64,000 nt of DNA from positions 16,583,208 through 16,647,207 of the forward strand of contig NC_092642.1 in NCBI RefSeq assembly GCF_039555335.1. Direction: 5' to 3'. Shown here piece after piece: positions 23,780 through 48,100 of the stretch (position 1 is its first letter; every line of letters starts with the position of its first letter). The notes beneath the pieces are model-generated. The model had not been told where the DNA came from. It did no database searches and saw only the letters and a program-made list of their open reading frames with translations. A program made the position numbers and the translations under genes. This DNA is from Amphiura filiformis. Taxonomy: Eukaryota > Echinodermata > Ophiuroidea > Amphilepidida > Amphiuridae.

Positions 23780-24216
23780 ACTAAAATATAATCTCTTGAG
23801 TAAACTGACCCCAAACCTGAAACAGGTACCAGCCCGAATGGGCTGGCGAAAAGGGGTCATTGATATACCAAAAGGTCGAAAATGCTACCCATGTTTGCAG
23901 CACATCCCTATAAAACATGGTCATTTGTACTGAGTACCACCCCCGGTAATCCCCTGGGGTTTGAATTGGACTATTCCAGTTGAAATCCACACTATCCTTG
24001 ATTTTGGAAATATCTTTCACAGGGGGAGTATGTTTTTCAGATGTAATTGGTCAGGGTTAATCATTTTGAAACTCGTACTCCCCCTGTGTTATGGCTTTAC
24101 TTATATCTTCCACAACTGGAGTGAATATTTCAAATGGAAGTTACTCAATTGTCTATTCTATTCAAAATTTACACTCCATCTGTAGAAGATTTTAGCTAAA
24201 TCTTCCAGATTTTAGC

Positions 24217-24916
24217 AAAGAGATTCATTTGGTAGGATTGTTGAGATCATAAGCTGGTTAATTATGTTAGCCAAATCAATAAAAATTACTCACGGAACTG
24301 AGCTTTTCGCCATCTTGGCTGATGGCGATCACAGATGAACTGGTCCACTGCTTTTCCTTGAAAACTTGGTTGCTATAGTGCGCATCCTGGTTACCGGAAG
24401 TGATGTTGATTTAAGCAGTGGGTCATATACATGATCTAGAAAATGCACCCCTCGTCGCGGTTGAGTGAGTTCTTGCCCTTTTTCTTGAGCTAGCAGGATG
24501 GCCTCTGACTCACCTTGAACAACACAAGTCCAGCTAAGTAAGCTCTCTACCACGAACAGTCACAAGAATAACCGACCACGTGCACAAGAAAATCACGTCA
24601 TCGACTGGGAGGGGGTCAAATTACTGGATAGAGACTCAAACGCCTTCTCAAGAAGAGTCAGGAGGCCATCCAAATCAGAAAAAGGGCAAGAACTCACTCA
24701 ACCGAACAAGGGTGCGCATTTCTAGATCATGTATATGACCCACTGCTTAAATCAACATCACTTCCGGTAACGAGGATGCGCCTATAGCAACCGAGTTGCG
24801 CGGGAAACAGCAGTGGACCAGTTCATCTGTGATCAAGCCATCAGCCAAGATGGCGAAAGCTCAGTTCCGTGAGTAATATTTATTGGATTTGGCTAACATA
24901 ATTAACCAGTTTATTA
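24217..24916. mobile_element. Inverted pair of Penelope-like element 3' ends
   Basis: The arms of about 230 bp at 24250-24480 and 24680-24905 are reverse complements (for example AACTGAGCTTTTCGCCATCT versus AGATGGCGAAAGCTCAGTTC). Both arms encode, in outward-facing orientation, the end of a Penelope-like protein: a degraded REAIQIRK-like stretch followed by LDHVYDPLLKSTSLP. The insertion is flanked by a 15-bp direct repeat, CTTCCAGATTTTAGC, at 24202-24216 and 24917-24931. Confidence 0.75.
24879..24884 (-). terminator. Candidate polyadenylation signal AATAAA in a transposon arm
   Basis: TTTATT on the plus strand reads AATAAA on the minus strand, 111 nt downstream of the OTU-SEFIR stop codon. 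It lies inside the right arm of the Penelope-derived foldback. Confidence 0.35.
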
Positions 24917-24994
24917 CTTCCAGATTTTAGCTAAATCTTCCACAGGGGTAGTGTGGATTTCAACTGGATTAGCCCATTATCAGTATGAACCAGT

Positions 24995-25671
24995 TTAGGG
25001 TTGAGCAAAAACAGTTGCCATTGCAGGGTCATGAGGCTGATGTTGCAAGGTGGTAAATTGCGTATCAAATTCTTGTGAATTTGCACGTTCCATCCTCAGT
25101 AAACTTCTGGACTCTCTAATAGCTAAAGACAGGTTCATACTGCTTGCATCATTTGTAGCATGATGGTCAAGATCCAACTCGGGAGCTTTATAATTGTGCC
25201 TTGGACCACTAGGATTAATGCCATGGATTTGAAACATCAACTTATCTAACTGGCGAGGCAGTTCATACACTGCTCCATGATCCATTGTTGATATAACATC
25301 CCCACGGGAGGAATAATCAAAATATGCAATTAAGAATTTATCTGTGGAATTCCTGTCAAAATCAGCCGCACATGACTTAAAAGCAAGCCAAAATTTGTCC
25401 ACAGGAGCATGCTCTCTTTTCTTTAACAAGACATCTGGATATACCCGTGCCTTTTTAGAGAATATGATGATTATCTTATCTGCTTGTTTCTTCTCATTTT
25501 CAAACCATGGGGAGAAAGGGATGTGGGGAGGATGATCATCCAGCATGATGACAGGATTGCAGCAACATTTCTGCTTGAGGACTTCGCGTAGGCAGTACAC
25601 AGTGTTGACATGTTTATCATCATCATCCAGATAGAGAAGTAGTATCCTCTTTTTATACTTTGGTGTTCGAT
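24995..25671 (-). CDS. OTU-SEFIR gene exon 9: SEFIR domain and C-terminus
   Basis: This exon is 677 nt, phase 1 in, with TAA at 24997-24995. The acceptor is TTCTTTCAG|AT. SEFIR hallmarks in order: a first strand and helix (KKRILLLYLDDDDKHVNTVY), a tryptophan helix (SPWFENEKKQADKI), a second strand IIIIFSKKAR, and DKFLIAYFDYSSRGDVIST followed by YELPRQLDKLMFQIH. This parallels the YVVCYFSE...DGDVP...Y.LMDRFEEVYFRI region of IL-17RA. A 55-residue polar tail follows. Confidence 0.93.
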
Positions 25672-28600
25672 CTGAAAGAAAAATGATTTATAATGTAAAA
25701 CTGTCAAGCTACAAAAGTATGATTATAATGAAAATAATTTTGCTGTGCTCACTTTTATCCACATATCAAGTCTGTACTGCGTAAAATGAACTCCCTTGCA
25801 TATTGTCAAAGATCTCAGAACAAAAACAAAGGTTTTTGAAATATTTTTTTCACATAATTGACATTTCTTTCAAATTTAAAAATGAATGCCACATTGTTTA
25901 AAATTACCCATCTTAAGAGCACCAACCAGATGATTCATAATTCATCTCAATTCAGTCACTTTTGCTACACACAAAAGTGGCCCAAGCTGTTTTAGGACTG
26001 CTTTACACAATTGGCCATACTCCAGTTCTTCACTTGTAGACCAGCAATGTTATTGAAACAAAGCTTATGTAGTAGCTTAACAAATTACTTGGCGACCAAG
26101 TAAAACTCAATACAATCAATAATTGACATGTTTGCCTAATACTTTTTTTCTAAATTGTATTTTTTTAATTTTTTTTTTATAACCTGTACATGTATTTTAA
26201 GCTACCTCAAGTAATTTCCACAAGAGAAAACTAACATGTCTGTGAGGGCTGAAACAAACATCGTCACACACATGTACCGATGCCTGGGCCCATGTCGTTT
26301 CCAGAATTAGACTCATCTTCTTGTATTTTGCTCTACCCCCCCCCAAAAAAAAAAACCAATCAAAACCATAAACAATGAAAACATAGGCCAAGGCCTACAT
26401 GGTTGTTTGTAATATTTACTTACCACAATAGCCAGTTATTGTATTGTGGAGCAGTATGGACTCAGCAGGTGTCTCATCTTGCCCTGTTGGTACAAAAAGT
26501 AGAACTTTCATGAATAATGATTTTAACTTTCACTTCTTGTACCTCTTGATTTGAAGGACAGTGGCATAAAAAGAGAGTTGAGAAATTCCCAAAATCTCTT
26601 TAAAATCTGTGAAGATTACATCCTCAATCGATCATATTTCTCAGAATTGGTGTTAGCCTTGAACAATTATTAATGCCCAAATTGTGACAACTAGGACCCA
26701 GATTATGCTAGCCGCAAAAAGTTAAAATTTGAAATTGACTTACTCGCAATCGAATTCAGTTCGTTCAATCAAATTCAGTGTGACACATAGTGTCAACAGG
26801 TACAGTCGCTATTCGATTACGATTAAGTCGCTATATCCAAGCAGTCAAATTCAATTTCACTATCAGTTACATCTTTTGCTATAAACAGACTTAGGCAAAT
26901 TAATTTGTGTTTTTCATGAGTGTCCACTTAATAATCATCAAACCCCTGAAGACGACATAAATTTGTTGGAAGCACCCTCTGACTCAAATAAATTTATGGA
27001 TATCGATTCAAGCTTGAAAATGAATCGCAGCAAATTTTTCCTGCGTACAAAGGGTGGAAAGTATTTATAGTTTGGATTAATTACCTGTTGGAAATTGACT
27101 CTGGCCTCCCATGTAGCCTCCTCCTGTATACAGTGGCCTGATAGAATCATGTGATCCCTTTTGTCTTAAGCCACTTAGTGCTTGTGAAGGAATACTCCTT
27201 AATCTTCCAGCTTCACTGTTATATGGCAATCTTGAATGTTCTGGAAACAGGGCAAGTCAAAAATGAGTTAAAAAATGTTACATAATACATTGGTTTCTGA
27301 TTCGGCAAGTGCAGCAACATGGGTGTCTTGTGGGAAAATTAAGTTTAATGCCATTGTTTTGTGTTTGTCGTACAATTTTTGTAGAAATTGGAATTTGGCC
27401 AAAGTGGACCACTTGAAATGTTTCTGGCTCATAACAGCAGCAACTGGTTCAATAGGTAAGTTGATTTCAAAAATTAAGTATAACCAGCATGGTCATCCTA
27501 AGAGGGCAAAAGCCTGGTAATGGAGAATTATGTCCCTGTTAAAAGGTAAAAAGCTAGTAAAAGACAAAGGGTTGATTAAACAGACATTATATGTTTTCCA
27601 CCCAATTTCACCTGAAAATACTTTTTCAGTAAGGACAGCCTGTCTCCCAGTTATGCTCCAATCAAGAGCCCTGTAGATTATAGAGACTATTGAAGTTGAA
27701 GTGTCACTACCAGTGGACCAAATAGCCAATCAGAACCTTGGTCCGTATGCACAAAAGAGTTAGACCGGGTCTAAAGTTAGACCTGGTCTAAGTGGAATTT
27801 AGTTCCATCAGGAATGGTCCTTTACTATTATTTCCTTCCAATAGTTGCTAGCAAATTCTAAAGATTGTAATGCAAAGTTCAAAATTAATACAAAATAACT
27901 TAAGCAAATGTAAAGGAAAATGTCCTTTCTCCTGAGACTAAATTCCACTTAGATCTAACTTTAGACCCGGTCTAACTCTTTTGTGCAGGGTGTTAACCTG
28001 AACCCTAATCCAGTGATCTGCTAAATTGTTGGTCTAACAGCAGGGCTGGAGGAATCAAGACCAGACTCAGAACTATTTTGGAGGACTTTAGAAGGACTTT
28101 AAGGACTTTTGACCCAAAATTTGAGGTTTTTTTTACTATAGACATAAAAAGGTCTGGTATTTTTTTATTTTTTTTTATTTTCTTATAATTTTGACCAAAT
28201 ACCAATGTCCATTTCAACCATTTTTGGTGAAGACGGTCAAAATTAAACAAAATATACAACTTGCATTCCTAGCTTCTTAGATCTTCATATCTAGTTTTTG
28301 AAGATTAGTAAGAATACTAATTTTACGAATAATTTTGGTGGTTTTCTTATGTCATGTATGTTGTCCAAAAAGATGGATCAAAATCATACTGTTTATAATT
28401 TTCTCCAAAACTGAGCATTTTTACATTATATGACATCACAGTTGGATTTGTCACATTTTTGCTTTTCTAATTATATATACTTTTATATAATACTTTAGAC
28501 CAACAATCTTATTAGTAATAATGAGGCCCAAAAGTTTTCATAATTCCTGGGTTACACAAATCTTATTCTCAGTTTTCTTATAACCCAATCAAAAGTTAAA

Positions 28601-31600
28601 TTTTAGGCCCAAAATATATTTCCTTTAGATGGTATAAACAAACTTGGTGACCACATGCAGTAAAAATACTTAATCAGTCATGCACATTTATTTTCAAACT
28701 TCCTTTCATTCATGATCGTGATGAATGCTATGTCCAGAGAATCAGATGAAACTTGTCACATGGCTACTCCTGTCGTAATATATGATAATTATGACCAAAT
28801 TTATGAGAAATTTTTACCTTGAAATTTGCGATGATCTTGATTTTGGCTATGCATTTTCAGCTCACTGTCGACTACACTTGGTGAATTACATGATACAGGC
28901 TCTGTATGGGAATCAATGAAACAACAAAATTCAAATTATGATGCAAAAATTGGATATTTGGATACAATCTTGGTTCAAATATCTTGATTGATGTCTAATA
29001 CCCTGGATATAAAAGCTGTCAGTTGTTACAACCTTAGATTATTAATACACAGATTGGAATTTTCCATGCCTATGCCCTCTAAGCGTACTCGAATTCAGCT
29101 GACGCCGGTACAGCGTTCAGACCTGGCGACATCGCGAAGTTTCTTTTATTATGTACGCCTGCGCTATTTGCGCTTTTATTGAGTTTGCTCACGCGGTACC
29201 TGACTTAGCGTCGACCCCCTTGGGCAACATGCCAAGTTTCCACGGTATGGTTACAACATATTTTAAGTTGAAACACAGCACAGTGGGAGAGTGTGACACA
29301 GTGGTGATGAAGTGGCTTAATATCCCTTCCAAAGGATGGACTTCTCTCATGGTTCATTCAAGGATGCAAAAAAAAGGGGGGGCGGAGCACCACTCCCAGG
29401 AGGAAATGATAGGAAGAAGAAGGAAATAGAAAAATCTTGTTGCTGAGGAAGAAATCACTTTCTACATCGATCCCTGGCCGCCGTTCATTCCCTGTACCAT
29501 GGAGATAAATGGAAGGTTGAATTTAACCTATACTATGATCAGCTCGTAATAGGTGAGAATTATTTGGTTTTTTATTACTGTGCAAGACTCAAGTCAATAA
29601 AGTCCCAACTTATGCCTGCGTAAATTCACAAAAGCGGGCGTCAATCACATATTACGCAGCACACTTCACATAGGTGCTCACCAGGGACGGATTTAAGCAG
29701 TGGCCCGGTGGCCCGGGGCCAGTGGATTTTGCATCGGGCCAGTAAACTTCCAACAACGCTGGCCCGGCGGGCCACTAGATTTTGAGCCAACACATATATG
29801 AGACAAGATATAATCCGTCATGGACATTATTTACACAGTTTCTGCTCCGCCTGTCACCTGTAATTTATATCTTTATTTGTCGTATATTTATATTCTTATT
29901 CTTGCATTGCTAGCAAGTTGGAAATATACGGCCGCTTTTTACGGCGATAGTAGGCCTACGTAGCCTACTACTTCCAAGCTCTTTCGTGCTCTCTCTGATG
30001 ATGATAGCGATACCACAAATACCGCATATTTGAACCTTTGTGAACTTTTGGAACTAAAAAAGCAGGACCAGTGGCGTATCTACGGGGACAGGGGGGGGGG
30101 GGCAACATGCCCCGGGCGCCACCCTTAGGGGGGGGGGCACCAAATTGACCAATTCAGCATCGATTCTGCACCCCTCCAAGCGATGAAAGTCAAAATTTTC
30201 GTGCGCTTCACGCACATTTCAGCACAAAATGAATTGAAGGAACATTTTAAGACCGATATTCAACATCTGTAGTAACCAAAATTAAATAGTGTATAGGCCT
30301 TATTTGTCCAATTTGCGTGCAATTGTTTCAAGAATGGGGGAGCATTACCCATTATGTATCCTTAGCCAATTTTGTTTCTTGCCCCAGGCACTACCAACCC
30401 TACATGTAGTTACGCCACTGGACAGGACTGACTGAACTCGTCTTAGTGACTACCGTATTCATTCCAATAAGCGCCCAGGGCGCTTAACAAAGTCATTTTG
30501 GGTGGGCGCTTATTTTATACCTGGTTTCCGTAATTTTTTCGTAAGGGGCGTTTATTTTATTAGAAACAATTTTACATATATGTTATAAAGGGCTCTGAGA
30601 TGTTTTAATAGCTTTTCTGATGCAGAAAATGTATTGCAAGTTTACACAGGATTATATAGCCCTCCAGCTATTTCACTGTATTGATGTCTCTCTGTCACTT
30701 CAACATTAATGGTATATCCTTTAGCAAATTGAAAATACCCTAGGTGGGCGCTTATTGGGGCATGGGCACTTATTGGAATGAATACGGTACTACACTCTCT
30801 ACATTGAGTACATTCAGTACAAAACAAATGTTAAGGTTTGCTTGACTTTAAGGGCTTGGATAGCGACGTTTCCACATATTTTTTGTGGGACCTGAGAGCA
30901 CATCAGACATATCAAATTGCATTTTGAAAACGAGGAATGTCCTTCTGATATCATATAATTTTGATTTTTTTAAATTCGTGATATAATACACATTTTATGG
31001 CAAATGATTAAAATTGATATATAGATTTCCACCCCCCCCTCCCAAAAAACACCAAGGAAAAAAGTAGGTTTTTTTTTTTTTTTTTTTTGCAGTAGAACAT
31101 ATTGAAAAAGCTGGACCAGTAAATTTATTGCAGGGCCACTAGATCTGCCATTTCAATGGCCCGGAGGACCAGTAGAAAACTGAAACCTAAGTCTGTCCCT
31201 GGTGCTCACCCACTGTGCGTACAAAGGATTACATCAATCCACGATGTTATGAGTTCCGTCTATTATGAGCTGCAGAGTATACCCCAGCAAGTTGCCACCA
31301 GTGGGGATTGAAACCAGGGACCTCATCCAAACCTGAAGCAATAAATATATATAATGTGTGCACAACACAGTGACTCTACCACTTTTTGAAGGTGGGTGCT
31401 TGCTCTGGTTTGGATGGACTGGATTTTGAACTGGGGATTATACAACAGAGATTTACGCCCATACCAATCTAAACCTACCTAGGCTTACATAGTGCACCTC
31501 ACACACATGTCCAAGTCTAATAGGAGTTACACCCTTATACTGCACATCCCCAACTATCCACTGCAGATAAGCTTCATCATCTGTGCTACTACGAGAGCTT

Positions 31601-34600
31601 GTCACTACCATGATGTCTCTTTCTAGCATACGAGCCATTGCTACGAGGATCACAGCATCAGCCCATTTTCCATCCTTGGACATAGACACAAGGTAGCTTG
31701 TCCAATCAGATGGAACGTAAGATCGGAAATCAATGACACCATCAGGACCCTGCAAGGTAATAATAAGCAATATCGTCAAAATCAATGTGTCACATGCTGT
31801 ATAGCAATACCATTGATTCTGAAACTATAGCAAGTGACAAACAGTGATCTTACTTTACAATTTGTATAGGCTGAAGTTGATATGGAGAGTCAATATGAGC
31901 AGTCAAGGTAGCTCAATCTATAATAAGGCGTTCGACTATGGTGCGAGAGGTTGTGGGTTCAAACCCTTGCAGTCGGTAGTTAGTACGCTCTCATGTAACA
32001 ATTGAGTTATCTTGAAATTCCATTGGACACGGAACTTACTGCTAATTGTCTCGTTGTAGCCCGTACGAAACTTGGGGAGCTGATACTGGCTGCGATGATC
32101 AATTGTGGAATGTCTAGGGTGTGCACTTCCTAGCTGCAAGTCCCTGTGTTATTGCATGTTCAATGGTTTGTGGAATGATGGGGCTGTAGTGGTCATCGAC
32201 AACCTGTAATGTGTGCCGAGGCTTGTTGATTAACATCTAGGCATTGTGCCTGTGCATAGTGCACTAACACTGCGCTTTACAAAATAAAATTATTATGACC
32301 TAATATGGTATGGAAAACACCCTGGGTTCAGCTCGGTGCCATACTAGGCTCAGCCTTTGGTTTCACCTGGTATGAAACTTTGCCAAATTGTTTCCCATCT
32401 GGGGGTTCTCAAATTTGGTTTGGGTAGGGGTGTGCTGCTGAGAATTTGAAAGTGGACACACCAATTTTTGAAGAAATATGGACCCATTGATATACCAAAA
32501 TTCAAAATTTTGAGGAAATTTCAAAAACTTTGGTGACAGCGAGGCAAAACTAGGCTATTTTCCAAAAAAAAATTGAGAACATTTTGAAAAAAAAAGGACC
32601 CATCCATATACCAAAATTGGCCTAGAAAAAGGGGTCATTATGATATACCAAAAGGTCGAAAATGCTACCCATGTTTGCAGCACGTCTCCGTATGGTCATT
32701 TGTATTGAGTACCCCCCTGGATTCTCATAACATAACTCCGCTTCACCCAATAACTTAAAGTACATGTCTACACTATACTTGGTACTGATACTAATATCCT
32801 TCAAAATCTGGAGTGGCCTTCCCTTGAGCAGCGAAGAAGACAACATAGATTAACAACAATGTATAAAATTCAATATGGTGAAATTGCAATACCCATTCCT
32901 GAATATGTTCAAACACAGACAGTTAAAGCTCATCAATACCATCCCCAAAGGTTTAGAGTTATGAAACCTCACATAAACACCTACAAATATAGTTTCTTCC
33001 CCGGACAATCATAGGCGGGAACGCTCTACCTCCTTCCGTGTATATTGCCAAATCAGCTGACTGCTTCAAGAATTGTATTAATAATATGTAATTTCAGGTT
33101 GTTTTTTCCTCATTTTTGTATAGCCATGTTGTTTTCAACTGGCGCCTTTGATCACCTCAACTAGATATTGCTTTCATGCAAACTTTATTTATCATGTTTA
33201 TGTAGATGTAGATGTAAAAGAGGAGTCGTATCAATTGTGGCTTATTGCTAACAAGTGTAAACAGGATATTAGCCTCAGGCTCACCTGAATTTGTGGATGT
33301 CTTCTGAGGTATGATACCGCCTTATCTCTAAGCTCTGCTGCTGTTTGATGTGGAAGTCCCAAAAGAGTGAGCTGATCAGAAACAGCGTGGAAACAGCAGT
33401 TTCCATCTTTTGGGGTATGGCCGTGGATTTTAAAACCAGCCCTGCGGCAGTTTTCTGTAAGATGTTGTTCTGCCTCATTTTGAGATGAATACACATTTTC
33501 AAGTGCATGGAAGAGAGCAGCTGGGGTGTAGTGTCTATAACCTAAAATGAAAGACAAAAACAACAAATAATAGACACTTATTATACTAGACTATCATTTA
33601 TCTGCATGACACCAAGTCAGGGGTGTAGCCCGCTTTCTTGGTCCAGGGGGAGGGGGTATAAAAATTTCAGGCGCAAAGATGAAAAACAAATTCCCGGTTG
33701 CATCATTTTGACCCTGTTATATAGGTGTGATATGTGTACAAATACCTTCTTTTTAGAGAGAGACAATACATTTTAAGTCTTCGAGCTTCAAAAAAGGTGT
33801 TTATTTGGAGATTGGTATTTTACACTATTTGGCCCATGATCTTAGTTTGGGGTGAATTTCGATGGAAAACAAGCTCCTTGCCCCTTTTCTTTTCCCTTAC
33901 CTTCCTGACTTTCATTTTGTGTCAGAGGGACACTTCTCTCTTTCATACTTTTGTCAGTGGGGCACTTTTAAATAAAAGTCTTTGTTAAACATGTTGTCAC
34001 CTCTTACCTCTTAGGTTAGCATGATCATCTGACCGTAGACTCCCAGGTCTGCGGTCATCTTCAGCAGAAGTAGCTCCATCTCCAAAGTGGCTCTCCTCGT
34101 GTTGCTGTGTGGTTGAAGACTGAGTTGAGGTACCCCTTGCAATCATGGATCTTGGATATCTTTCTGTACGATCAGTCCATGTTTGCTGACATGGAATTGG
34201 ATGATAGCTGGTACTGGTGAAGTGTTGTTGGTTGCCTGGAATGTGTATATCACGTGGCTGTAGACTCAATTGATGAATAAGACCTTGCTGTGTGACTTTG
34301 ATGTCATGGAGCATTTCTTCATGTTGTTCCCATTTATTCTCATGATCTTGAAGTATTTTGTCCTGCTCTTCTTTCTGGTCTTTGAGCTTTTTGTCAACAA
34401 TCTCCAACATCTGCTTCCAATTTTGGTCCTCTTTCAGCCATTGGTCATCAGATACTATGATTGTGGTGGTTTTTAGCTTTACAAATAAGAAAACATGCAC
34501 AGATATGAAAATGAGTTTGTAATAAAACAAATCCATCTTCCCAGCAAATACAAAAACAAATTTAACCATTTTTATATCCGGTACGGTTATATAGGTCTAT

Positions 34601-36231
34601 ATTTGGATAGTCCTGCAGTGCATCCCCTTCTCTCCTACCCCACTGAAAAATTCTGTTTATAACATGCAAGTTTACATCTAGAAGGGCAATACATTGTCGT
34701 TCATTACCTCCTGAATCTTCTGACAGATGTCAACTTTCTCAGGCATGTCCACAAAATTATGGTATCCAACATCCAGAAACCGTATCAGTGTTTTCTGCAT
34801 CTGATCAAACTGGCCGTTGGGTAACTTTTGTGAGGGTTCATGGAAAACTTTGTTGCGGATATCAAGGACCTGAAAATAATTAAACACAGGCATAATTTAA
34901 CATAAATAATACTCAAACATTATCATTTTTTGTTACAAAATATCAAGAACAATAAAAACAAGATTTTAAAAACTTTATATGCTTCTTCCTAGCAGGGCAT
35001 AAAGCTGAATTTATAATAATTATTGCTTTTGCAGACAAGCAAATTACATGCATGCTCAATGTGTAATAAATGCCACCAATTTTGCACACTGAGCATGCAC
35101 ATAATTTGCTTTTATGCAAAAGGGATTGAGTATAAATTCAGCTTAGGCAGTAGCGGCGCCAGGATTTTTTTTCCGGGGGGCATTGAGGGGCAAAGTGAAT
35201 TTCAGGGGGGAAATCAACCAATTTTGAGCAAAATTACCACAAAAAGGTGAAATTTTTGTCATTTTGGGTTTTTACTGGGGAGACAGGGGGGCAAGGGTTC
35301 TGACTGGGGGCATTTTCCCCCTCATGCCCCTCCCCACAATATATGTGATTGGACACTGAAACACAGTGAGAGAGTATTGGCTATCATGACCAGGCCCGTA
35401 CGCAGGATTTTTTGGGGGGGTTGCTGCTTTTGAAAAAGTGGACTTTATTTTCCAAGGGGGGTGGGCAATTCTGTGAAAAGTGGACTTTTCCCCAAAAATG
35501 TGGACCTTTTTTGACAGAAAAAACGTAAAATCTTAAATTTTGGGACTTTTTGTATACTTTTGCACCCCGCCCGCACCCTCACCCTGGTCTTAAAAAAATC
35601 GTTCAAATGATTTGTGCTGAAATGTGCGCAAAACGCACAGAATTTTTGACTTTTATTACTAGGAAGGGGCGCAGAAGCGATGCTGAATCCCCCTAAGGGT
35701 GGCGCCCAGGGCATGTGCCCCCCTCTAACCCCCACCCCACCCTGTCGCTATGCCACTGGATAAAAAAATTACCTGAAATACTAAGCTCTTCCACTCATGG
35801 TTGGAACCAAAGACCTTGCAGTGTAACATCAGATTAAGCATGGATGAGGGGTCCAACTCATCTACACTTCTGATCTTCTTTCCAGCCCTCTGTCCATGTT
35901 TCATGTACACCTTAGCCACCTCCCATGGATCTGACTGCCACAATGTTGGATCTGAATTACTCCATGCTGGTTTTGCCCTTCCTGTAGGATTGAGGTCATA
36001 ATACTTTTGCTCCAGGGAGGTCTTCCATTTACTACAAATTGTACAACAATGGTTCCACTTCCACCAGTTCCCAGATGGTCGGCAGTTCTTCTGACAGGTT
36101 TTTTTGCCGTGTTCTTTGACCAGTTTATTATGGAACCATTTTACTCTTTCGTCCACAAATGGGGCCAGGTATTGGCAGATGAGTGGGAGCATCATGGTGA
36201 TGCGGTACCAGTTCTTTGATGCATCATCCAT
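24995..36231 (-). CDS. CXorf38-like/HEPN-like, coiled-coil, OTU protease, SEFIR multidomain protein (complete, nine exons)
   Basis: Exons on the minus strand: 36231-35773, 34869-34708, 34476-34008, 33541-33285, 31749-31479, 28901-28818, 27240-27085, 26483-26424 and 25671-24995. All junctions are GT/AG, phases agree (0,0,1,0,1,1,1,1), and the total of 2595 nt gives 864 residues plus TAA. Domains: residues 1-207, CXorf38-family module (CTIC at 63-66, DPWEVAKVYM at 101-110, RNKVFH at 158-163); about 218-275, charged coiled coil; about 396-540, OTU with KDGNCCFHAVSDQL (Asp409, Cys412) and EVHYVSL (His535); 541-640, polar linker; about 648-805, SEFIR (RILLLYLDDDDKHV, ADKIIIIFSKKAR, DKFLIAYFDYSSRGDV). 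There is no signal peptide or membrane segment, so it is probably cytosolic. OTU domains hydrolyse ubiquitin linkages and SEFIR domains assemble IL-17-type receptor complexes; a ubiquitin-editing signalling role is inferred. The ATG has a good context (AAACATGG). I do not know a named gene with this order. Confidence 0.9.
26424..26483 (-). CDS. OTU-SEFIR gene exon 8: short linker
   Basis: This exon is 60 nt, phase 1/1. The acceptor is ACCAACAG|GG and the donor is TATTGTG|GTAAGT. It encodes QDETPAESILLHNTITGYC. Confidence 0.75.
27085..27240 (-). CDS. OTU-SEFIR gene exon 7: linker
   Basis: This exon is 156 nt, phase 1/1. The acceptor is GTTTCCAG|AA and the donor is CCAACAG|GTAATT. It is rich in Ser, Gly, Arg and Gln (RSIPSQALSGLRQKGSHD, LYTGGGYMGGQSQFP). 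Probably disordered. Confidence 0.78.
27748..27987. mobile_element. MITE with ~55-bp terminal inverted repeats
   Basis: The left TGCACAAAAGAGTTAGACCG...CTAAGTGGAATTTAGT and the right ACTAAATTCCACTTAG...CTAACTCTTTTGTGCA are reverse complements. The 240-bp element has an A/T-rich middle. Confidence 0.8.
28818..28901 (-). CDS. OTU-SEFIR gene exon 6: linker
   Basis: This exon is 84 nt, phase 1/1. The acceptor is CCATACAG|AG and the donor is TTCAAG|GTAAAA. It reads PVSCNSPSVVDSELKMHSQN onward; only this frame is open, and it is the one the flanking phases require. No domain. Confidence 0.75.
30069..30420. mobile_element. CAGTGGCGTA-type MITE nested in the hAT element
   Basis: The ends CAGTGGCGTATCTAC and GTAGTTACGCCACTG are inverted repeats. 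The G-rich left half contains CCCCGGGCGCC. The flanks AGCAGGAC and GACAGGAC are an imperfect 8-bp duplication. Confidence 0.75.
30452..30788. mobile_element. MITE with ACCGTATTCATTCCAATAAG termini
   Basis: The left ACCGTATTCATTCCAATAAG and the right CTTATTGGAATGAATACGGT are perfect 20-bp inverted repeats, followed internally by CGCCC/GGGCG blocks. Nested in the hAT element. Confidence 0.85.
30846..31090. mobile_element. Half copy of the foldback family seen complete at 58139-58799
   Basis: TTTTTTGTGGGACCTGAGAG, CATCAGACATATCAAATTGC and TCCTTCTGATATCATATAAT parallel one arm of 58139-58799. A TTAA precedes it (30849 region). The second arm is absent; it runs into C- and T-runs. Confidence 0.65.
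31205..31392 (-). mobile_element. Possible tRNA-derived SINE head
   Basis: On the minus strand GTGGTAGAGTCACTGTG (box-A-like) is followed about 65 nt later by GGTTTCAATCCCC (box-B-like). Only promoter-box resemblance supports this. Confidence 0.35.
31479..31749 (-). CDS. OTU-SEFIR gene exon 5: OTU C-terminal half with catalytic His
   Basis: This exon is 271 nt, phase 0 in and 1 out. The acceptor is CCTTGCAG|GGT. It encodes DWTSYLVSMSKDGKWADAVI, MARMLERDIMVVTSS and GHVCEVHYVSL with the catalytic His. A GTAAGC donor 10 nt earlier would also splice, but only the GTAGGT donor used here keeps exon 6 open. Confidence 0.92.
31900..32298 (+). mobile_element. tRNA-derived SINE
   Basis: A box-A-like GGTAGCTCAATCTATAATAA and a box-B GGGTTCAAACCC are spaced as in a tRNA. 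They are followed by about 300 bp of body and a 3' end TGCGCTTTACAAAATAAAAT typical of LINE-mobilised SINEs. Not a functional tRNA because the cloverleaf arms do not pair. Confidence 0.55.
32397..32720. repeat. Dispersed repeat, second long copy of the ATACCAA family
   Basis: GGTTTGGGTAGGGGTGTGC, GGACCCATTGATATACCAAA and GGACCCATCCATATACCAAA occur in the same order as at 22150-22400. Lies in OTU-SEFIR intron 4. Confidence 0.65.
32793..33220 (+). pseudogene. LINE reverse-transcriptase C-terminus, frameshifted
   Basis: The plus strand reads LQNLEWPSLEQRRRQHRLTT, MYKIQYGEIAIP, then a YKYSFFP block, a frameshift at the SFFPRTI motif, and a stop at about 33090. A TAGATG tandem tail follows at about 33200-33215. 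This is the typical C-terminal WxSLExRR...RL...SFFPRT region of CR1/Jockey-like elements found in many invertebrate genomes. It sits antisense in an OTU-SEFIR intron, ending about 65 bp from exon 4. Confidence 0.75.
33285..33541 (-). CDS. OTU-SEFIR gene exon 4: OTU N-terminal half with catalytic Asp/Cys
   Basis: This exon is 257 nt, phase 1 in and 0 out. The acceptor is CATTTTAG|GT and the donor is ATTCAG|GTGAGC. It contains TPKDGNCCFHAVSDQLTLLG, the OTU active-site loop and helix, then ELRDKAVSYLRRHP. Catalytic Asp and Cys are both kept. Confidence 0.93.
34008..34476 (-). CDS. OTU-SEFIR gene exon 3: coiled coil and Ser/Thr/Gln-rich linker
   Basis: This exon is 469 nt, phase 0 in and 1 out. 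The acceptor is TTTGTAAAG|CTA and the donor is AGAG|GTAAGA. A heptad-like region (WKQMLEIVDKKLKDQKEEQ onward to about residue 275) is followed by a polar segment rich in His, Gln and Thr. The acceptor is the least certain junction of this gene (an alternative AG lies 21 nt downstream). Confidence 0.8.
34708..34869 (-). CDS. OTU-SEFIR gene exon 2: HEPN-like RNxxxH helix
   Basis: This exon has 54 codons in phase 0/0. The acceptor is ATTTTCAG|GTC and the donor is CAGGAG|GTAATG. It encodes VLDIRNKVFHEPSQKLPNGQ and a second helix. The Arg158-Asn-x3-His163 spacing is that of HEPN domains and matches RNEIMH of CXorf38. Confidence 0.88.
35002..35144. mobile_element. Small MITE in OTU-SEFIR intron 1
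   Basis: The ends AAGCTGAATTTATA and TATAAATTCAGCTT are inverted repeats. The inner CATGCTCA/TGAGCATG also pair. 143 bp. Confidence 0.7.
35150..35765. repeat. G-rich/C-rich dispersed repeats in OTU-SEFIR intron 1
   Basis: Two or more fragments of the CAGTGGCG/CCCGTACGCAGG repeat group: GTAGCGGCGCCAGGATTTTT at 35151, CAGGCCCGTACGCAGGATTT at 35392 and a right end GTCGCTATGCCACTGG ending at 35760, next to the exon 1 donor. Confidence 0.6.
35773..36231 (-). CDS. OTU-SEFIR gene exon 1: CXorf38-like N-terminal module
   Basis: This exon has 153 codons, with the donor TTTCAG|GTAATT. Conserved features are NHCCTICSKWK, WSNSDPTLWQSDPWEVAKVY and a predicted helical end (LDPSSMLNLMLHCKVF). It matches the Cys-x-x-Cys, W-x-N and DxWEVAKxxM pattern of human CXorf38 (I believe Pfam DUF4559). 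A MITE-like G-rich repeat ends about 14 bp past the donor. Confidence 0.88.
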
Positions 36232-36294
36232 GTTTGGTTTGGTATATTACCTGTATTTAACGGTGATGTTGCTAATCAAAACCAATCAAAAAAC
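36232..36294 (-). other. Possible 5' UTR segment with upstream intron acceptor
   Basis: On the minus strand CTCTATTTTACAG precedes position 36294, a good pyrimidine-rich acceptor 63 nt upstream of the ATG. This suggests a spliced 5' UTR; the upstream exon was not located. Confidence 0.35.
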
Positions 36295-36726
36295 CTGTAA
36301 AATAGAGAAAGGAGATTGTATTAAGGTTATTAATTATTTTAAACTGTTGTGATTTGGTAGTTCACAGCATCTTACGAATGGTAGTGAGCTTCGGTAAAAA
36401 CTGCATTGCTCAATTAATAGCGAGCATGTAGAATAATTAAAATATCACAGATATACTTTTATAGGTGCTGTGGTTCTTGAGTTACGTTTTTAAGAAAATA
36501 TAACAACATTTATAACAATTTTTGAAAACATTTTGTTTGCTGGGAGAATTAGGGGCTGTGCAATAATTATGAGCCTCCCCTCCAAAAAATGCTTGCTCCC
36601 CCACTCTCGGCTGGCAAAAATTGCTTGCCACCCCCCCCCTTGGCTCGCCAAAAATTTCTTGCTCCCCCAATTTTACCCTCCCACCAGGGCTCATAATTAC
36701 AGCCAAAATTGACCCTTTAAGATAAG

Positions 36727-36882
36727 GATAATGAACTGAGTGCAATGCATTAGTCAAGATAATCGCACGCGCCGTGGAGTTATTGCATTTAGCTCGAGAG
36801 CCGATAGGCTCGAGAGCTAAATGCAATAACTCCATGCCAAGTGCGATTATCTTGACGAATGCATTTGCACGAGTACATTATC
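36727..36882. repeat. Near-perfect 156-bp palindrome
   Basis: The arms meet at about 36804 (GAGAGCCGATAGGCTCGAGAG). AGATAATCGCAC, GGAGTTATTGCATTTAGCTC and their reverse complements are on either side. Loop of about 5 bp. Confidence 0.85.
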
Positions 36883-39364
36883 CGTCATATACTTTGAGTG
36901 TATTAAAACAATAGGCAATATTAATTGCTGCATTCATTATATTAGTTTGAATATTAGGTAAAATATCTTAAATTTTAAAAACACCGTCAGGTCATTGACC
37001 AGGTAGCATTTACTAGTAACTGGTCAAGAAAATCAATCACTGTATAAGTTAGCTATCAATGGTATCGATTGCGCCATACGGCATACTTTAGTAACTTATT
37101 CACGCCTGGTTTGTAACCAATTGACTTTATGTTGTGATCATTTAATATCGTGGTTCCGAACACAGAGAGCACTGAAGCAGTTGACCTGGAAACAATTGAT
37201 TTTGACGTCCAACTACATGTAGTACTACGGTGAATGGAGATGAGAGAATAAACTTATATATCAATATCAACTGGACTTTATAGTTCTACAATTTAAATTT
37301 AAAATCTACTAATATTGTTAAAACACACGACAGTGGAATTTTTCAATTTGTTCTGTATTATAAAGCATGATCATGATATTACACGCTAGTGTGTGTTTCC
37401 CAGGCGTGTTTATGTTATCTTAGATATAGGCCTACATGTAATTCATTTGTAAAATGCTGAATATTTTGTAATGGTGTCATCTTGTATAATTATGGTCCAC
37501 CTGTTTTTAGCCCTTTTAATTAATAGAAGCTCGATTATTCTCATTTGATGTTTGATTTATTTGAGTTCATTAATCATAATTTATGGCAATGATAGTTGCA
37601 AAATAGAACAGTTTGTAACCTATGATTTACAAAGTGCGCATGAACAAATACCATACCCTATAATTATTTTAACACCACAGAATGTATATTCGTATTTTTT
37701 TGGTGGTATATATATCGAACATAGTTATATAAGTTATATAGTAATGTGAAAGTAGTATTTCTAGTATTTGAGCATGCACGTATTATTATCTAAAATCTAT
37801 TGTTTAGCGTGCGGGTTTTAGATAATGTATTGTTTAGCGTGCAGGTTTATATAAACCTGCACGCCAAGTAGTTCATGAAAATAATGCACGGGAGAAGAAT
37901 ACATAACGATGAATAGAAACGGGCACTAGAAGTATATTTTTGAATAAATGCATCTAGACAAAACTTTAAAAGTTGAAATTTTCACACAATTAATTAATCG
38001 CGCTTTGCCTATTTTGAACTGTTTCCTTGTTTTTAAATTCACAATCCTAAGTTTCCACATATTGACCTAACAAAAAAGGAATATATTCGTGCGTTGTTAT
38101 TTTTGCAGTAGCAGCTTGGAACGCGAAAAGCACAAAAATAAATGTAGCACGAAAATTTCCACTTTTCCTGTAGTTGGTTGCCAGATCATGACCTTTGATA
38201 TTTCAATACAAACAATACATTTGAATTGTAAAGGTCTTATCTGTAGACAGGTATCTACAGTTATCATGCCTGAATGATTATCTGCCATTTCTCTACATTA
38301 GGCAAAAAATAATAAATTGTTTGGTTGTCCTTCCAACTTCCAAGACAAAAATTTTGAGGGTTGGCAGGTTTTTTTGGGGGGAGGGGCGCTTCCTACATTT
38401 TGATAAGGCTAGTAATGTTGAACATACGGTAAAACACTGTGCATTTTTGGAGTGATTTTAAATGGAAGTATACTTCTTGTTTTTAATCAAATGTGCTTTT
38501 AATTAAAATAAAATGAGTGAATAACAAATATAAAATGCCCTAGATAACTTTTTCTGTTGGTCACAGAGGGTAACTCAACATTTTTTTTTGCCTAGTGCAT
38601 TAGATTGAGAATTCAGTTCAATTCAATTCAAAGTGAACGTCCTCCTTCTTTTTCAACTTTCCTGATTAGACCAATGCACTTTTTATAATACTAGCAATCT
38701 TTCTCAACTTTCCTGGTGCAATTTTTGTTAATACATGATCTTTTTCAATGAATTTGGTCAATTTTTTGTCAAATATGACTTTTTGGTATAAGTATTTGTA
38801 CTGTTTACACAAGTCTCAATCAACACACTTTAGTTGGAATCAGCTGCATTTGTTGTGTTTGTAGGATGCTATCATAGCAATTTTGAATAATATTGATGTC
38901 ATAATTATGCCATTAAATTGAAAATATAGTTTCACAGATAAGTGGCCAAGTAAGTGGGTTTTCTTTATTTTACTTCATCAATTTGGGCTTAAAATGGACA
39001 AAAAACCTTCCAGACAGCTGTTACTAATATTATTTCATCATTTCAACAAAGTATAACAAAATTTTTGACTGAAAAGTTATATTGCTGGAACTTGAGCAGA
39101 ATAGGCCTACACTATAAAACATGTTGTAATGACTATATTGGTAGCACTGACCCCATGCACCCCACCCACAAATTTGACAAAGAACCCCCTCCTGGATATC
39201 ATCAAACAAAGAAGCCTAGAATCAACCTAATTACCACCCCTATATGCAGTTTAATTGTCAAGGAACAACTGTCCCACCTCCTTCCAAAGCAAAGGTGATG
39301 AAATATAATAATTTTTGAAGATAAAATGTGCTGACCTTAAAAGATTGAACAATGTTTAAGGGGG

Positions 39365-42128: not shown

Positions 42129-45100
42129 GTAGGTACTTTGTCATGCTTGAGGAGGAACAGTGGCGTAGCTGGGGTGGGGGTACGTGTCCGATGCCGTCTT
42201 GGGGGGGGGGTTAATTTCCATCCCAGGGGGCGCCGAATCCACCTGGTTAGGTCAACAATTCAAAATTGTGTGTGTATGCCTACATACTATATAATGTGTT
42301 GCCAAAATGTGCGATTTGCTTCTTCCATTTTGTCAGTTTGCATGAAAATGAAACACAATTTGGCCATATTAAAGGATTAATATTGCTACAAAATAATGTG
42401 CGTTAATTTTTTTTTTATTGGGGTCAACAACTAACAATTTCAGTCGGCAAGATATATTGTTACAACAAGTTTGGGCGCCATTCTGTATCCTTGCCCCGGG
42501 CGCCACAACCCCTAGCTATATGCAATAAATTCCCCCAATATTTTGCCAGGGTGGTCCATACAATCATCCCCCCCCCCAATGTTGACGCCTGTATGTGGGT
42601 TTCTGACCAAATTAACCTTATATTTGGCCATTTTAGCCCCAAACGTGCAAACTGTTGTGCGCTTTGCGCGCATTTATTCCACCTTTGAATCAAATTTCAT
42701 CAATTTAGCCCCCCCACCCCCATGGCAACATTTTTCGCGCATTTGTACAATAAACTTATTCTGTCGCCAAAGGTGCGGGATTCACTTTACTTCAAGGGGA
42801 GTTAGTCAAAACAAAAACACTGAAAATCACAGTATTTGTGTATAAATTGTTATACTTTTTAGGGGTTTTGAGCCCCCGGGCAAAAAACAAATTTGGGTCA
42901 ACAATTCACAATTATTAGTTGCAGGGAGGTAAATAAGGATAATTTACTGGGTGGGCAATTTAATTTATATTTGCCCTCAAATAATGGAAAATAATTTACT
43001 GGGTGGGCAGTGATAATTAATGACATCAAGGCGTATGGATTTTCGGAAATGTAGACCTGTGTTTGCATACAATTTGGATTTGATGTAAGAAGTGGACATT
43101 GCCATAGCATATTCATGTAGCAACTTTCAAGAAAAATTATATACCATATTATATTTCACTTTGGGTATTTAGAAATCTTATACTATTTGTCACTCACCAT
43201 TACTCCTATACGTAAAAACGCAGTACTTAAAATTAGATGGTAATTATTATATGGTGCCCAGTTTTTGTGGGCAAAATAATTTACTGGGTGGGCACTTTTG
43301 GGCAATGGGCAAGTTGAATTTACTGGGTGGGCAAAATAATTTACTGGATGCCCACCCAGTTAACATGTTATTTACCTCCCTGATTAGTTGGCAAAAAGGC
43401 CGCCCACCCCATTCCGTCTTATCTGGTCGAGCTCGAGCAACGTCGACGGTCGCGGCCACTAGGTCTATGCAAGGTTATTAAGCTAAACCTTGGTCTATGG
43501 AAGAGGAAGTGACAAAGTTTAAAAAATTCCCGGGGTTCAATCCGGGAGTTCAATGACAACCAGTCATTAAAAATGGTATCTCGAAGCTAACTCGTTGTCG
43601 TGGAGGCAGAATTGCAAAAGCGACCCGCTAACCCATGCAGTGTCGTAGATATTTTCATAATAGCATCATAGGTCATCTAAACACCTTTTAGCAACAAAAT
43701 AAGTTTGGGATAAAATGCGCGCGAAGCGCACGAAAATTTGTGATATATTGAAGCTAAAACGGTGGAGAGTTGAACAAATTCGCGCGAAAAGCGACAAAAT
43801 TGGCACTTTTGGGGATGGCTAAATATGGGGTTAATTTGGTCAGAAACTCACTTGCAGGCGTCAACATTGGGGAGATGATTGTATGGACCCTCTTTATCAA
43901 AATGATTTATCCCCCATCTCCCTAGACTTCTCCGTAGCCTGGGGTGCACTCGACTTTAGAAGTGACGGACGGGGATGTGCGGACAGCAGTTCGAAACTAG
44001 GGGTCTTTCGGTGAGAGCCGAGACACCAAAAACAGGCTCTCAAAAAGGGTCTTTCTATTAATGTGTTCATAAATACTTTGTGGGGGGGAGTTAGAACCTC
44101 GGACGTCAAAAATTTGATTCCCCCTAAAAAGGTGGATTTTTTTATTCCCCCTTTTTATAGATTAAAATTTTTTTTATCCCCCCTTCATGTCCTAAAAAAG
44201 AAACCAAAAATATACATCATTAACAGTGGCATAGATTTCTTTTAGACATTGGGGTTGGACTAAATTTCTTGAAGTCCAGTGAATGCAGCACCTTTTGCCG
44301 ACAAAATAGGTTTATGGTACAAATGCGCGCGAAGCGCGCAAATTGTTTTTTCCATATTGAAGCTAAACTGGTGAAATATAGTACAAAACTGGAATTTGCG
44401 CGAAGCGCAAAAAAATCGGCACTTTTTATTTTAAAATGACCAAATATGGGGTTAATTTTGGTTAGAAAGCCATATACAGGCATCAACATTGGGGGATGAT
44501 TGTATGGACCATCCCCCTATCAAAATATTGGGTGGGGGGGGGGGGGGGATCCCCCAGGATCTACCCCTATGGTCATTAACTCATTAGCTAAAAATACCGT
44601 TTGGAGTTATTACTCATTGGAGTCATAGTGTTACACGGAACTTATATCCAAATTGTAAACATGGTAAAGTGCGCACATTTGGTTGATTTGTAGCTTGAGA
44701 TTACAAAATGGAATACTTTTAAGTATTAAAATGGAATACTTTTAAGTATTTAAATGTTAAAACATTTATGGAATGTACATGCCTTCTTGTAAATTTTACC
44801 CCGGAATTTTACCCTCTAATTTTTTTGACCCCCCTATTAAGGACTGAATTTTTTGATCCCCTTTTAGGACCCAAATTTTTTGGACCCCAGTAACCCCCCA
44901 CCAAAGTATTTATGAACACTCCTTAAAGTCATCATTAGCCATTATCCATTAGCAGTAGATAGCATTGTCCTTAAATCATCAATGCCTCCATCAGCAGTAG
45001 ATAGCATTGTCACTAAGTCATTAATGCCTCCATCAGCAGTAGATAGCATTGTCACTAAGTCATCAATGCCTCCATCAGCAGTAGATAGCATTGTCACTAA

Positions 45101-48100
45101 GTCATCAATGCCTCCATCAGCAGTAGATATAGCATTGTCACTAAGTCATCAATGCCTCCATCAGCAGTAGATAGCATTGTCACTAAGTCATCAATGCCTC
45201 CATCAGCAGTAGATAGCATTGTCACTAAGTCATCAATGCCTCCATCAGCAGTAGATAGCATTGTCACTAAGTCATCAATGCCTCCATCAGCAGCAGATAG
45301 CATTGTCACTAAATCATCAATGCCTCCATCAGCAGTAGATAGCATTGTCACTAAATCATCAATGCCTCCATCAGCAGTAGATATAGCATTGTCACTAAGT
45401 CATCAATGCCTCCATCAGCAGTAGATAGCATTGTCACTAAGTCATCAATGCCTCCATCAGCAGTAGATAGCATTGTCACTAAGTCATCAATGCCTCCATC
45501 AGCAGTAGATATAGCATTGTCACTAAGTCATCAATGCCTCCATCAGCAGTAGATAGCATTGTCACTAAGTCATCAATGCCTCCATCAGCAGTAGATATAG
45601 CATTGTCACTAAGTCATCAATGCCTCTATCAGCAGTAGACAGCATTGCCACTAAGTCATCAATGCCTCCATCAGCAGTAGATAGCATTGTCACTAAATCA
45701 TCAATGCCTCCATCAGCAGTAGACAGCATTGTCACTAAGTCATCAATGCCTCCATCAGCAGTAGATAGCATTGTCACTAAATCATCAATGCCTCCATCAG
45801 CAGTAGATATAGCATTGTCACTAAGTCATCAATGCCTCCATCAGCAGTAGATATAGCATTGTCACTAAGTCATCAATGCCTCCATCAGCAGTAGATAGCA
45901 TTGTCACTAAGTCATCAATGCCTCCATCAGCAGTAGACAGCATTGCCACTAAGTCATCAATGCCTCCATCAGCAGTAGATATAGCATTGTCACTAAGTCA
46001 TCAATGCCTCCATCAGCAGTAGATATAGCATTGTCACTAAATCATCAATGCCTCCATCAGCAGTAGATAGCATTGTCACTAAATCATCAATGCGTCCATC
46101 AGCAGTAGATATAGCATTGTCACTAAGTCATCAATGCCTCCATCAGCAGTAGATAGCATTGTCACTAAGTCATCAATGCCTCCATCAGCAGTAGATAGCA
46201 TTGTCACTAAGTCATCAATGCCTCCATCAGCAGTAGACAGCATTGCCACTAAGTCATCAATGCCTCCATCAGCAGTAGATAGCATTGTCACTAAGTCATC
46301 AATGCCTCCATCAGCAGTAGATAGCATTGTCACTAAATCATCAATGCGTCCATCAGCAGTAGATATAGCATTGTCACTAAGTCATCAATGCCTCCATCAG
46401 CAGTAGATAGCATTGTCACTAAGTCATCAATGCCTCCATCAGCAGTAGACAGCATTGCCACTAAGTCATCAATGCCTCCATCAGCAGTAGATAGCATTGT
46501 CACTAAGTCATCAATGCCTCCATCAGCAGTAGATAGCATTGTCACTAAATCATCAATGCGTCCATCAGCAGTAGATATAGCATTGTCACTAAGTCATCAA
46601 TGCCTCCATCAGCAGTAGATAGCATTGTCACTAAGTCATCAATGCCTCCATCAGCAGTAGATATAGCATTGTCACTAAGTCATCAATGCCTCCATCAGCA
46701 GTAGATATAGCATTGTCACTAAGTCATCAATGCCTCCATCAGCAGTAGATAGCATTGTCACTAAGTCATCAATGCCTCCATCAGCAGTAGATAGCATTGT
46801 CACTAAGTCATCAATGCCTCCATCAGCAGTAGATAGCATTGTCACTAAGTCATCAATGCGTCCATCAGCAGTAGATATAGCATTGTCACTAAATCATCAA
46901 TGCCTCCATCAGCAGTAGATATAGCCTTGTCACTAAGTCATCAATGCCTCCATCAGCAGTAGATATAGCCTTGTCACTAAGTCATCAATGCCTCCATCAG
47001 CAGTAGATATAGCATTGTCACTAAATCATCAATGCCTCCATCAGCAGTAGATGGCATCAAATATCCAAAACACAGGAAAGCAATATTTCGCTTATCTCAG
47101 TGAAAACAAGACCAGTAATATGTATATGAAGCCTATTGTTGAATCCGATATTGTAAAAATTATTGATAAATTCGACATAAACAAAGGTGGAGGCCATGAC
47201 AATATTGGCAATCTAATCATTAAAAAAGTGTGTAATGAAATTGCCAAACCTCTTAATATGATATTTAATTTCTCTATATCTACTGGGATTGTTCCTGATA
47301 AATTAAAAATAGCAAAGGTCATACCATTATACAAAAAAGATGATGCTGAGGCATTCTCAAACTATCGTCCAGTTTCTCTCCTACCGTGTTTTTCAAAAAT
47401 TCTTGAAAGGTTGGTTTTAACAGATGTACGGATTACATTGACAATAAGCAAATCCTTAACCCCAAACAATTTGGCTTTCGGTCAAAACATTCCACCTTTA
47501 TGGCTATAGAGCAAATGGTAGACAAAGTTACTGCAGCAGTTGAAAGAAACGAAACAACTATTGAATATTTCTGGACTTATCAAAAGCCTTTGATACAATC
47601 GATCATAACATACTCTTACATAAATTAGAACACTATGGCTTTCGTGGTATTGTGTTAGAATGGTTCAGAAATTATCTAAGTAACAGAAAACAATATGTTT
47701 ATTATAATTCTTATGAATCAGAATCACACGATATTATATGTGGTGTTCCACAAGGTTCAATCCTGGGGCCACTTCTATTTATACTCTATGTTAATGATAT
47801 AACTAATGCATCTAAAGTACTCGAATTCGTCCTTTTGTAGACGATACCACCATTTTATACTCCCATAAAAACGTAGAACGCCAGACAAACCTTGTTAATG
47901 AAGAGTTAAAGGAAGTAAGCAATTGGTTTAAAGCTAATAAATTGTCAATTAATGCTACCAAAACAAATTACATGATACTTGGCACACCCAAAATGGCATC
48001 AATGAATCAAGACCTGCAAATCACACTAGATCACACGGCTTTAGAAAGAGTGCATCAAACTAAATTCCTTGGTGTACTAATAGACGAATGTCTCACTTGG

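Follow-up and report, generated by a model that had tools for sequence, protein, structure and literature searches.

Organization of the locus

The DNA analysed here is a window of 64,000 nucleotides from the brittle star Amphiura filiformis (NCBI RefSeq assembly GCF_039555335.1, contig NC_092642.1, positions 16,583,208 to 16,647,207), and its main feature is a minus-strand gene (36231-24995 of the window) whose predicted product carries, in this order, a HEPN domain of the CXorf38 type, a long helix, an OTU domain, a linker and a SEFIR domain. In-phase joining of nine exons gives 2595 nucleotides encoding 864 residues with a single terminal stop; all eight introns are of the GT..AG type and the phases agree (Table 1). 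This is the structure drawn in the original prediction, a model's note made from the letters alone, and a protein record in NCBI/UniRef (P0001, 'uncharacterized protein') is 100% identical to it over the 864 residues. Since P0001 comes from A. filiformis itself, it backs the gene model and does not count as an orthologue; it also confirms the echinoderm setting to which the prediction had looked.

The open frame of exon 1 opens at 36246, five codons ahead of the initial methionine. Exons 7 and 8 are both phase 1-1, so that the SEFIR domain stays in frame whether or not they are included. AATAAA occurs 17 times on the minus strand of 36300-24000, and the two copies past the stop are therefore weak evidence for a 3' end. 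Searches of P0001 against NCBIfam and PADLOC gave no match, nor did Rfam at gathering scores within 24000-37000. An alternative start of exon 3 at 34454 was rejected, its frame not being open.

Domains of the predicted protein

Pfam was run on the whole 864-residue protein with matches listed up to E 1. The OTU domain (PF02338) was found at residues 408-504 with an E of 2.9e-13 (50.9 bits against a cut-off of 23.3), and the SEFIR domain (PF08357) at 648-787 with an E of 1e-16 (62 bits against 23), so the two domains foreseen by the original prediction do stand on one joined protein. What it had missed is the N-terminal third, where DUF4559 (PF15112) matches residues 3-268 with an E of 9.2e-32 (111.2 bits against 27). 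All three values are far outside the range of chance. No U-box or other ligase domain, no A20-type zinc finger and no NACHT domain appeared among the same matches. The architecture is well supported: the analysis shows the domain order, the reading frame, the homology of the domains and catalytic-type residues in place.

The catalytic-type residues of the OTU domain (D409, C412 and H535) are all present where they had been placed. Against PDB sequences the single-sequence search listed 12 matches, the best being OTUD1 (4.7e-6), OTUD5 (1.8e-4 and 2.2e-3) and OTUD3 (0.011), and the weaker ones including viral L-protein OTUs and a thioesterase (E 0.048-0.091). A two-sequence profile returned OTUD5 (4.8e-7 and 1.9e-5) and OTUD1 (6.5e-7) as its only three matches at E≤0.01. 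In both OTUD1 and OTUD5 the DG(N/A)C motif lines up with Asp409 and Cys412, and the OTUD5 histidine lines up with His535; the OTUD1 alignment ends short of His535. All three residues are also kept in a paralogue, the A. filiformis protein P0002, and the domain is probably an active enzyme.

For exon 9, SEFIR domains of the IL-17R/Act1 complex rank first both by sequence profile and by Foldseek on a predicted model, and the model has a SEFIR/TIR-type fold. No transmembrane segment is evident in the protein by hydropathy, the highest 19-residue mean being 1.46 with no dedicated predictor run, and it is thus predicted to be a non-receptor SEFIR protein.

DUF4559 (PF15112) is what we take to be the CXorf38 family, and a sub-threshold match to HEPN_Swt1 (E 0.077) falls within the same region at residues 101-185. 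The CXorf38 family is described as belonging to the Swt1-like HEPN group, with a zinc ribbon inserted in the HEPN domain, and is listed as active; fusions of this HEPN type to dsRBD, NACHT, ankyrin, CARD and DEATH are on record in various animals, and the main text of that paper makes no mention of SEFIR or OTU as partners (PMC3710099). Five cysteines (C46, C50, C62, C63 and C66) and R158..H163 are candidates for the zinc ribbon and the RxxxxH motif; the pattern R-x4-6-H is a loose one, and of its six matches in the whole protein, R158..H163 included, residues 1-207 hold three. The chances that the HEPN domain is an active RNase seem about even. In a comparison of the HEPN region with PDB sequences, a match to 5a5c (LRRTM; E 3.1e-5) in which no stretch passed alone was set aside as uninformative, and the other five matches had an E of 0.67 or worse. 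The helix of exon 3 appears coiled-coil-like by eye, and its blocks at 231-270 reached a pLDDT of 64-76 in a full-length AF2 model built from two input sequences; confidence elsewhere was low, the whole model having a mean pLDDT of 34.6, and the model was not used for fold search.

Origin of the OTU and SEFIR modules

P0002 is a protein of 1310 residues encoded outside the window, in which Pfam recognizes OTU, NACHT and LRRs; it is NLR-like, with the OTU domain toward its N-terminal side, and neither DUF4559 nor SEFIR is among its Pfam matches up to E 0.1. In the homologue search with the OTU region, a query of 180 residues, it matched at 63% identity with 98% of the query covered. When P0001 and P0002 were aligned with BLOSUM62, the sole strong match covered residues 364-567 (61% identity over 209 columns), while exons 4-6 span 364.33-568.33 and are flanked by phase-1 introns, so that the match ends at phase-1 introns. 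These ends vary with scoring (364-570 with PAM250, 347-573 with BLOSUM45), looser scoring blurring them. The chance that a random end falls within one residue of any of the eight junctions in 864 residues is about 3%, and for both ends about 0.1%. The original prediction had seen the OTU domain itself, though not that the module is held in common with an NLR-like protein.

The SEFIR exon has a counterpart in the window, where an apparent second SEFIR gene lies on the plus strand. Both SEFIR exons have the same phase and start within one residue of each other; the neighbour's begins DNRTQKP and exon 9 DRTPKYKK, and the aligned lysines differ by one residue in their distance from the exon start. 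Their alignment score of 99 exceeds the maximum of 53 in 500 shuffles, at 21% identity; the two are old relatives and not a recent copy. The last exon of the urchin SpIL17R2 encodes SEFIR too (PMC5457136). An OTU module whose match to P0002 ends at phase-1 introns, together with a SEFIR exon like the neighbour's in phase and start, points to exon shuffling at phase-1 introns as the origin of the gene, which would have joined an OTU module of innate immunity to a last exon of the IL-17-receptor SEFIR type. With phase-1 introns at its ends and a place in both an NLR-like protein and a SEFIR protein, the module seems a clear-cut instance of such shuffling among innate-immune genes. No description of OTU-NACHT proteins in invertebrates was found in the open-licence literature, as judged by titles.

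The neighbouring gene is apparently of an EGF-transmembrane-SEFIR receptor type with all exons in phase 1, in a model drawn by eye. Its four EGF-like exons, first called by eye and by cysteine spacing, all matched EGF-type Pfam families, one of them reaching the curated cut-off, and no database protein matched the model. Since the ectodomains typical of IL-17 receptors are of the fibronectin type (PMC6321704), EGF repeats in such a gene would be unusual. Elsewhere the window holds two exons of an IQUB-like gene and broken open reading frames of a reverse transcriptase, a retroelement remnant flanked by a tandem array of 42-base units.

Table 1. Positions of exons, motifs and other features in the 64,000-nucleotide window
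Feature	Position	Strand	Remarks
Exon 1	35773-36231	-	Start Met and first part of DUF4559/CXorf38 (HEPN) domain, residues 1-153
Cys-rich stretch C46/C50...C62/C63/C66	36034-36096	-	Candidate for the zinc ribbon of CXorf38-type HEPN
Exon 2	34708-34869	-	Further part of DUF4559, residues 154-207
R158-N-K-V-F-H163	34840-34857	-	Candidate HEPN RxxxxH (RNxxxH) motif
Exon 3	34008-34476	-	Predicted long helix, residues 218-278 (34446-34264), then linker; phase-1 end
Exon 4	33285-33541	-	OTU first half: Asp409 (33407-33405), Cys412 (33398-33396); phase-1 entry
Exon 5	31479-31749	-	OTU second half: His535 (31494-31492)
Exon 6	28818-28901	-	OTU-module tail, 28 residues; resembles P0002 segment; phase 1-1
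Exon 7	27085-27240	-	Linker; phase 1-1
Exon 8	26424-26483	-	Linker; phase 1-1
Exon 9	24995-25671	-	Single terminal exon: SEFIR, residues 648-787 (25648-25229), C-terminal tail, stop; phase-1 entry
Two AATAAA motifs	24879-24915	-	Starts 80 and 111 nucleotides past stop; possible 3' end
Apparent second SEFIR gene	54441-61089	+	EGF-transmembrane-SEFIR type
Its EGF-like exons (four)	54441-54554, 55355-55483, 56453-56608, 57144-57290	+	Phase 1
Its transmembrane exon	59222-59401	+	Phase 1
Its SEFIR exon, to stop	59966-61089	+	SEFIR 3.5e-13 (Pfam); phase 1
IQUB-like gene, two exons	1316-1756, 2556-2849	+	PF25805, 2.2e-25 and 7.5e-29
Broken reverse-transcriptase frames	47051-48367	+	Retroelement remnant
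PF00078 matches	47565-47837, 47816-48367, 47051-47506	+	3.3e-14, 5.3e-6 and 0.075 (Pfam)
42-base-unit tandem array	44945-47057		49.5 copies, 95% matches
42-base-unit tandem array	48887-49082		4.6 copies, 92% matches

A possible role in IL-17 receptor signalling

Act1 is a SEFIR adaptor that carries a U-box ligase for TRAF6 and that also binds RNA and stabilises select mRNAs (PMC6610456), and A20 and USP25 strip TRAF6 of its chains and damp the signal (PMC3726431, PMC6610456). An Act1 homologue was reported from hemichordates and invertebrate chordates and from none of the echinoderm genomes searched; the purple urchin has only two SEFIR genes, both of them transmembrane receptors, and the mechanism of echinoderm IL-17 receptor signalling without Act1 was left open, with room for a novel one (PMC5457136). 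At least one echinoderm is now predicted to encode a non-receptor SEFIR protein, a concrete candidate for this question.

We give roughly even credence to a soluble protein acting in the cytoplasm as a SEFIR-recruited regulator of ubiquitin and RNA. Each binding and catalytic event is inferred, as is the sign of the effect: the SEFIR domain would dock on the SEFIR tails of IL-17-type receptors by homotypic assembly like that of Act1, which on balance seems somewhat likely; the long helix would aid oligomerisation; the OTU domain would trim ubiquitin chains on TRAF6-like targets at the receptor complex; the HEPN domain would cut RNA once clustered; and receptor output would be limited or redirected. 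That the net effect is negative is a tentative proposition, a little short of an even chance. With SEFIR and OTU in one protein, deubiquitination would be brought straight to the receptor, to which HEPN would add RNA cleavage on clustering. The original prediction, made on the SEFIR and OTU domains, proposed a functional mirror image of Act1. In its strongest form this would be an 'anti-Act1', recruited by SEFIR and removing ubiquitin and destroying RNA at the receptor where Act1 adds ubiquitin and stabilises mRNAs. So complete an opposition is rather improbable; if true, it would belong to a rewiring of IL-17 signalling peculiar to this lineage, within a phylum from which Act1 is reportedly missing. 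Each of the three domains predicts a testable activity.

P0001 was the only protein retained among 4824 candidates at E≤0.001 in the whole-protein search and among 797 candidates at E≤1 in the search with the SEFIR and HEPN regions, and P0001 and P0002 were the only ones among 834 candidates at E≤1 for the OTU region. The search requires shared 5-residue words and similar length, and distant orthologues may therefore be missed; within these bounds the HEPN-OTU-SEFIR order was found nowhere outside A. filiformis. The original prediction had named the lack of any orthologue with both domains as a ground for refuting it, and to that extent it is partly contradicted. A protein found only in one brittle star cannot explain the urchins. 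The same searches agree, within their limits, with the prediction's statement that no family of this order had been described, as does the open-licence literature, judged mostly from titles and with subscription journals and preprints outside its scope, in which no description of the architecture was found. The placozoan (PMC6321704), ctenophore and sponge papers make no mention of OTU, and the A. filiformis genome paper makes none of NLR or interleukin. The domains are known and so is the habit of shuffling immune domains; the domain order appears new.

The protein might instead be a positive adaptor that replaces Act1, recruited to IL-17 receptors by its SEFIR domain, with the OTU domain editing chain type or protecting partners so that the signal proceeds. 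The reported lack of Act1 in echinoderms, the two transmembrane SEFIR receptors of the urchin and the novel mechanism allowed for by the same authors (PMC5457136) would all suit an echinoderm SEFIR protein without an evident transmembrane segment. The replacement is nevertheless unlikely, given the lack of any ligase domain among the Pfam matches, the negative action of the two deubiquitinases A20 and USP25 (PMC3726431, PMC6610456) and, here too, a single brittle star that leaves the urchins unexplained. It is likewise unlikely that the protein works apart from IL-17, as an effector against viruses or bacteria inside the cell, in which case SEFIR would serve as an oligomerising TIR-like scaffold activating the HEPN RNase and the OTU domain; the first rank of IL-17R/Act1-complex SEFIRs in both comparisons and the apparent SEFIR receptor gene in the same window speak against it.

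The main non-biological rival is that gene prediction fused two adjacent genes, one HEPN-OTU and one SEFIR (PMC4967905). The longest intron (2577 nucleotides) separates exons 5 and 6, three AATAAA motifs lie between exons 6 and 7 (28692, 28179 and 28169), no relative of exons 7 and 8 is known, the phases taken alone would agree by chance in one case out of three, and no second species has come to light. On the other side, the NCBI/UniRef protein is identical; exon 6 resembles P0002 right after the OTU domain and ends at a phase-1 donor, where read-through would meet a stop after five codons; the phase-1 acceptor of exon 9 lies within one residue of the neighbour's SEFIR exon start; and the next AATAAA after 28169 falls behind the SEFIR stop. 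The identical database model, the matching phases and the exon 6 shared with P0002 argue for a single transcript, so that a fusion is improbable and the HEPN, OTU and SEFIR parts very probably form one protein. An enzymatically dead decoy, binding through OTU and/or HEPN without cutting, is just as improbable: active-site residues by themselves are no proof of activity, but the three OTU residues are kept in both P0001 and P0002 and a candidate RNxxxH motif is present.

Comparison with known systems

The OTU domain resembles OTUD1 and OTUD5, its best PDB sequence matches, with Asp and Cys aligned in both and His in OTUD5; we know of no SEFIR or HEPN partner of these deubiquitinases. P0002 has the OTU module in common with the HEPN-OTU-SEFIR protein and differs in carrying NACHT and LRRs after it. 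The HEPN proteins of the CXorf38 family share the PF15112 match, with the zinc-ribbon cysteines and RNxxxH as candidate further likenesses, and are also joined to immune domains in several animals, but the partners given in PMC3710099 are dsRBD, NACHT, ankyrin, CARD and DEATH in place of SEFIR and OTU. With IL-17 receptors the protein shares its SEFIR domain, encoded in the last exon as in the urchin SpIL17R2 (PMC5457136), whereas it has no evident transmembrane segment. A placozoan SEFIR-death-domain protein is likewise a non-receptor SEFIR protein of unusual combination, with a death domain where that of A. filiformis has OTU and HEPN (PMC6321704). Act1 (CIKS, TRAF3IP2) is also a non-receptor SEFIR protein tied to ubiquitin, as the A. 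filiformis protein is by prediction; Act1 carries a U-box ligase (PMC6610456), where the brittle star protein has domains of the OTU protease and HEPN types.

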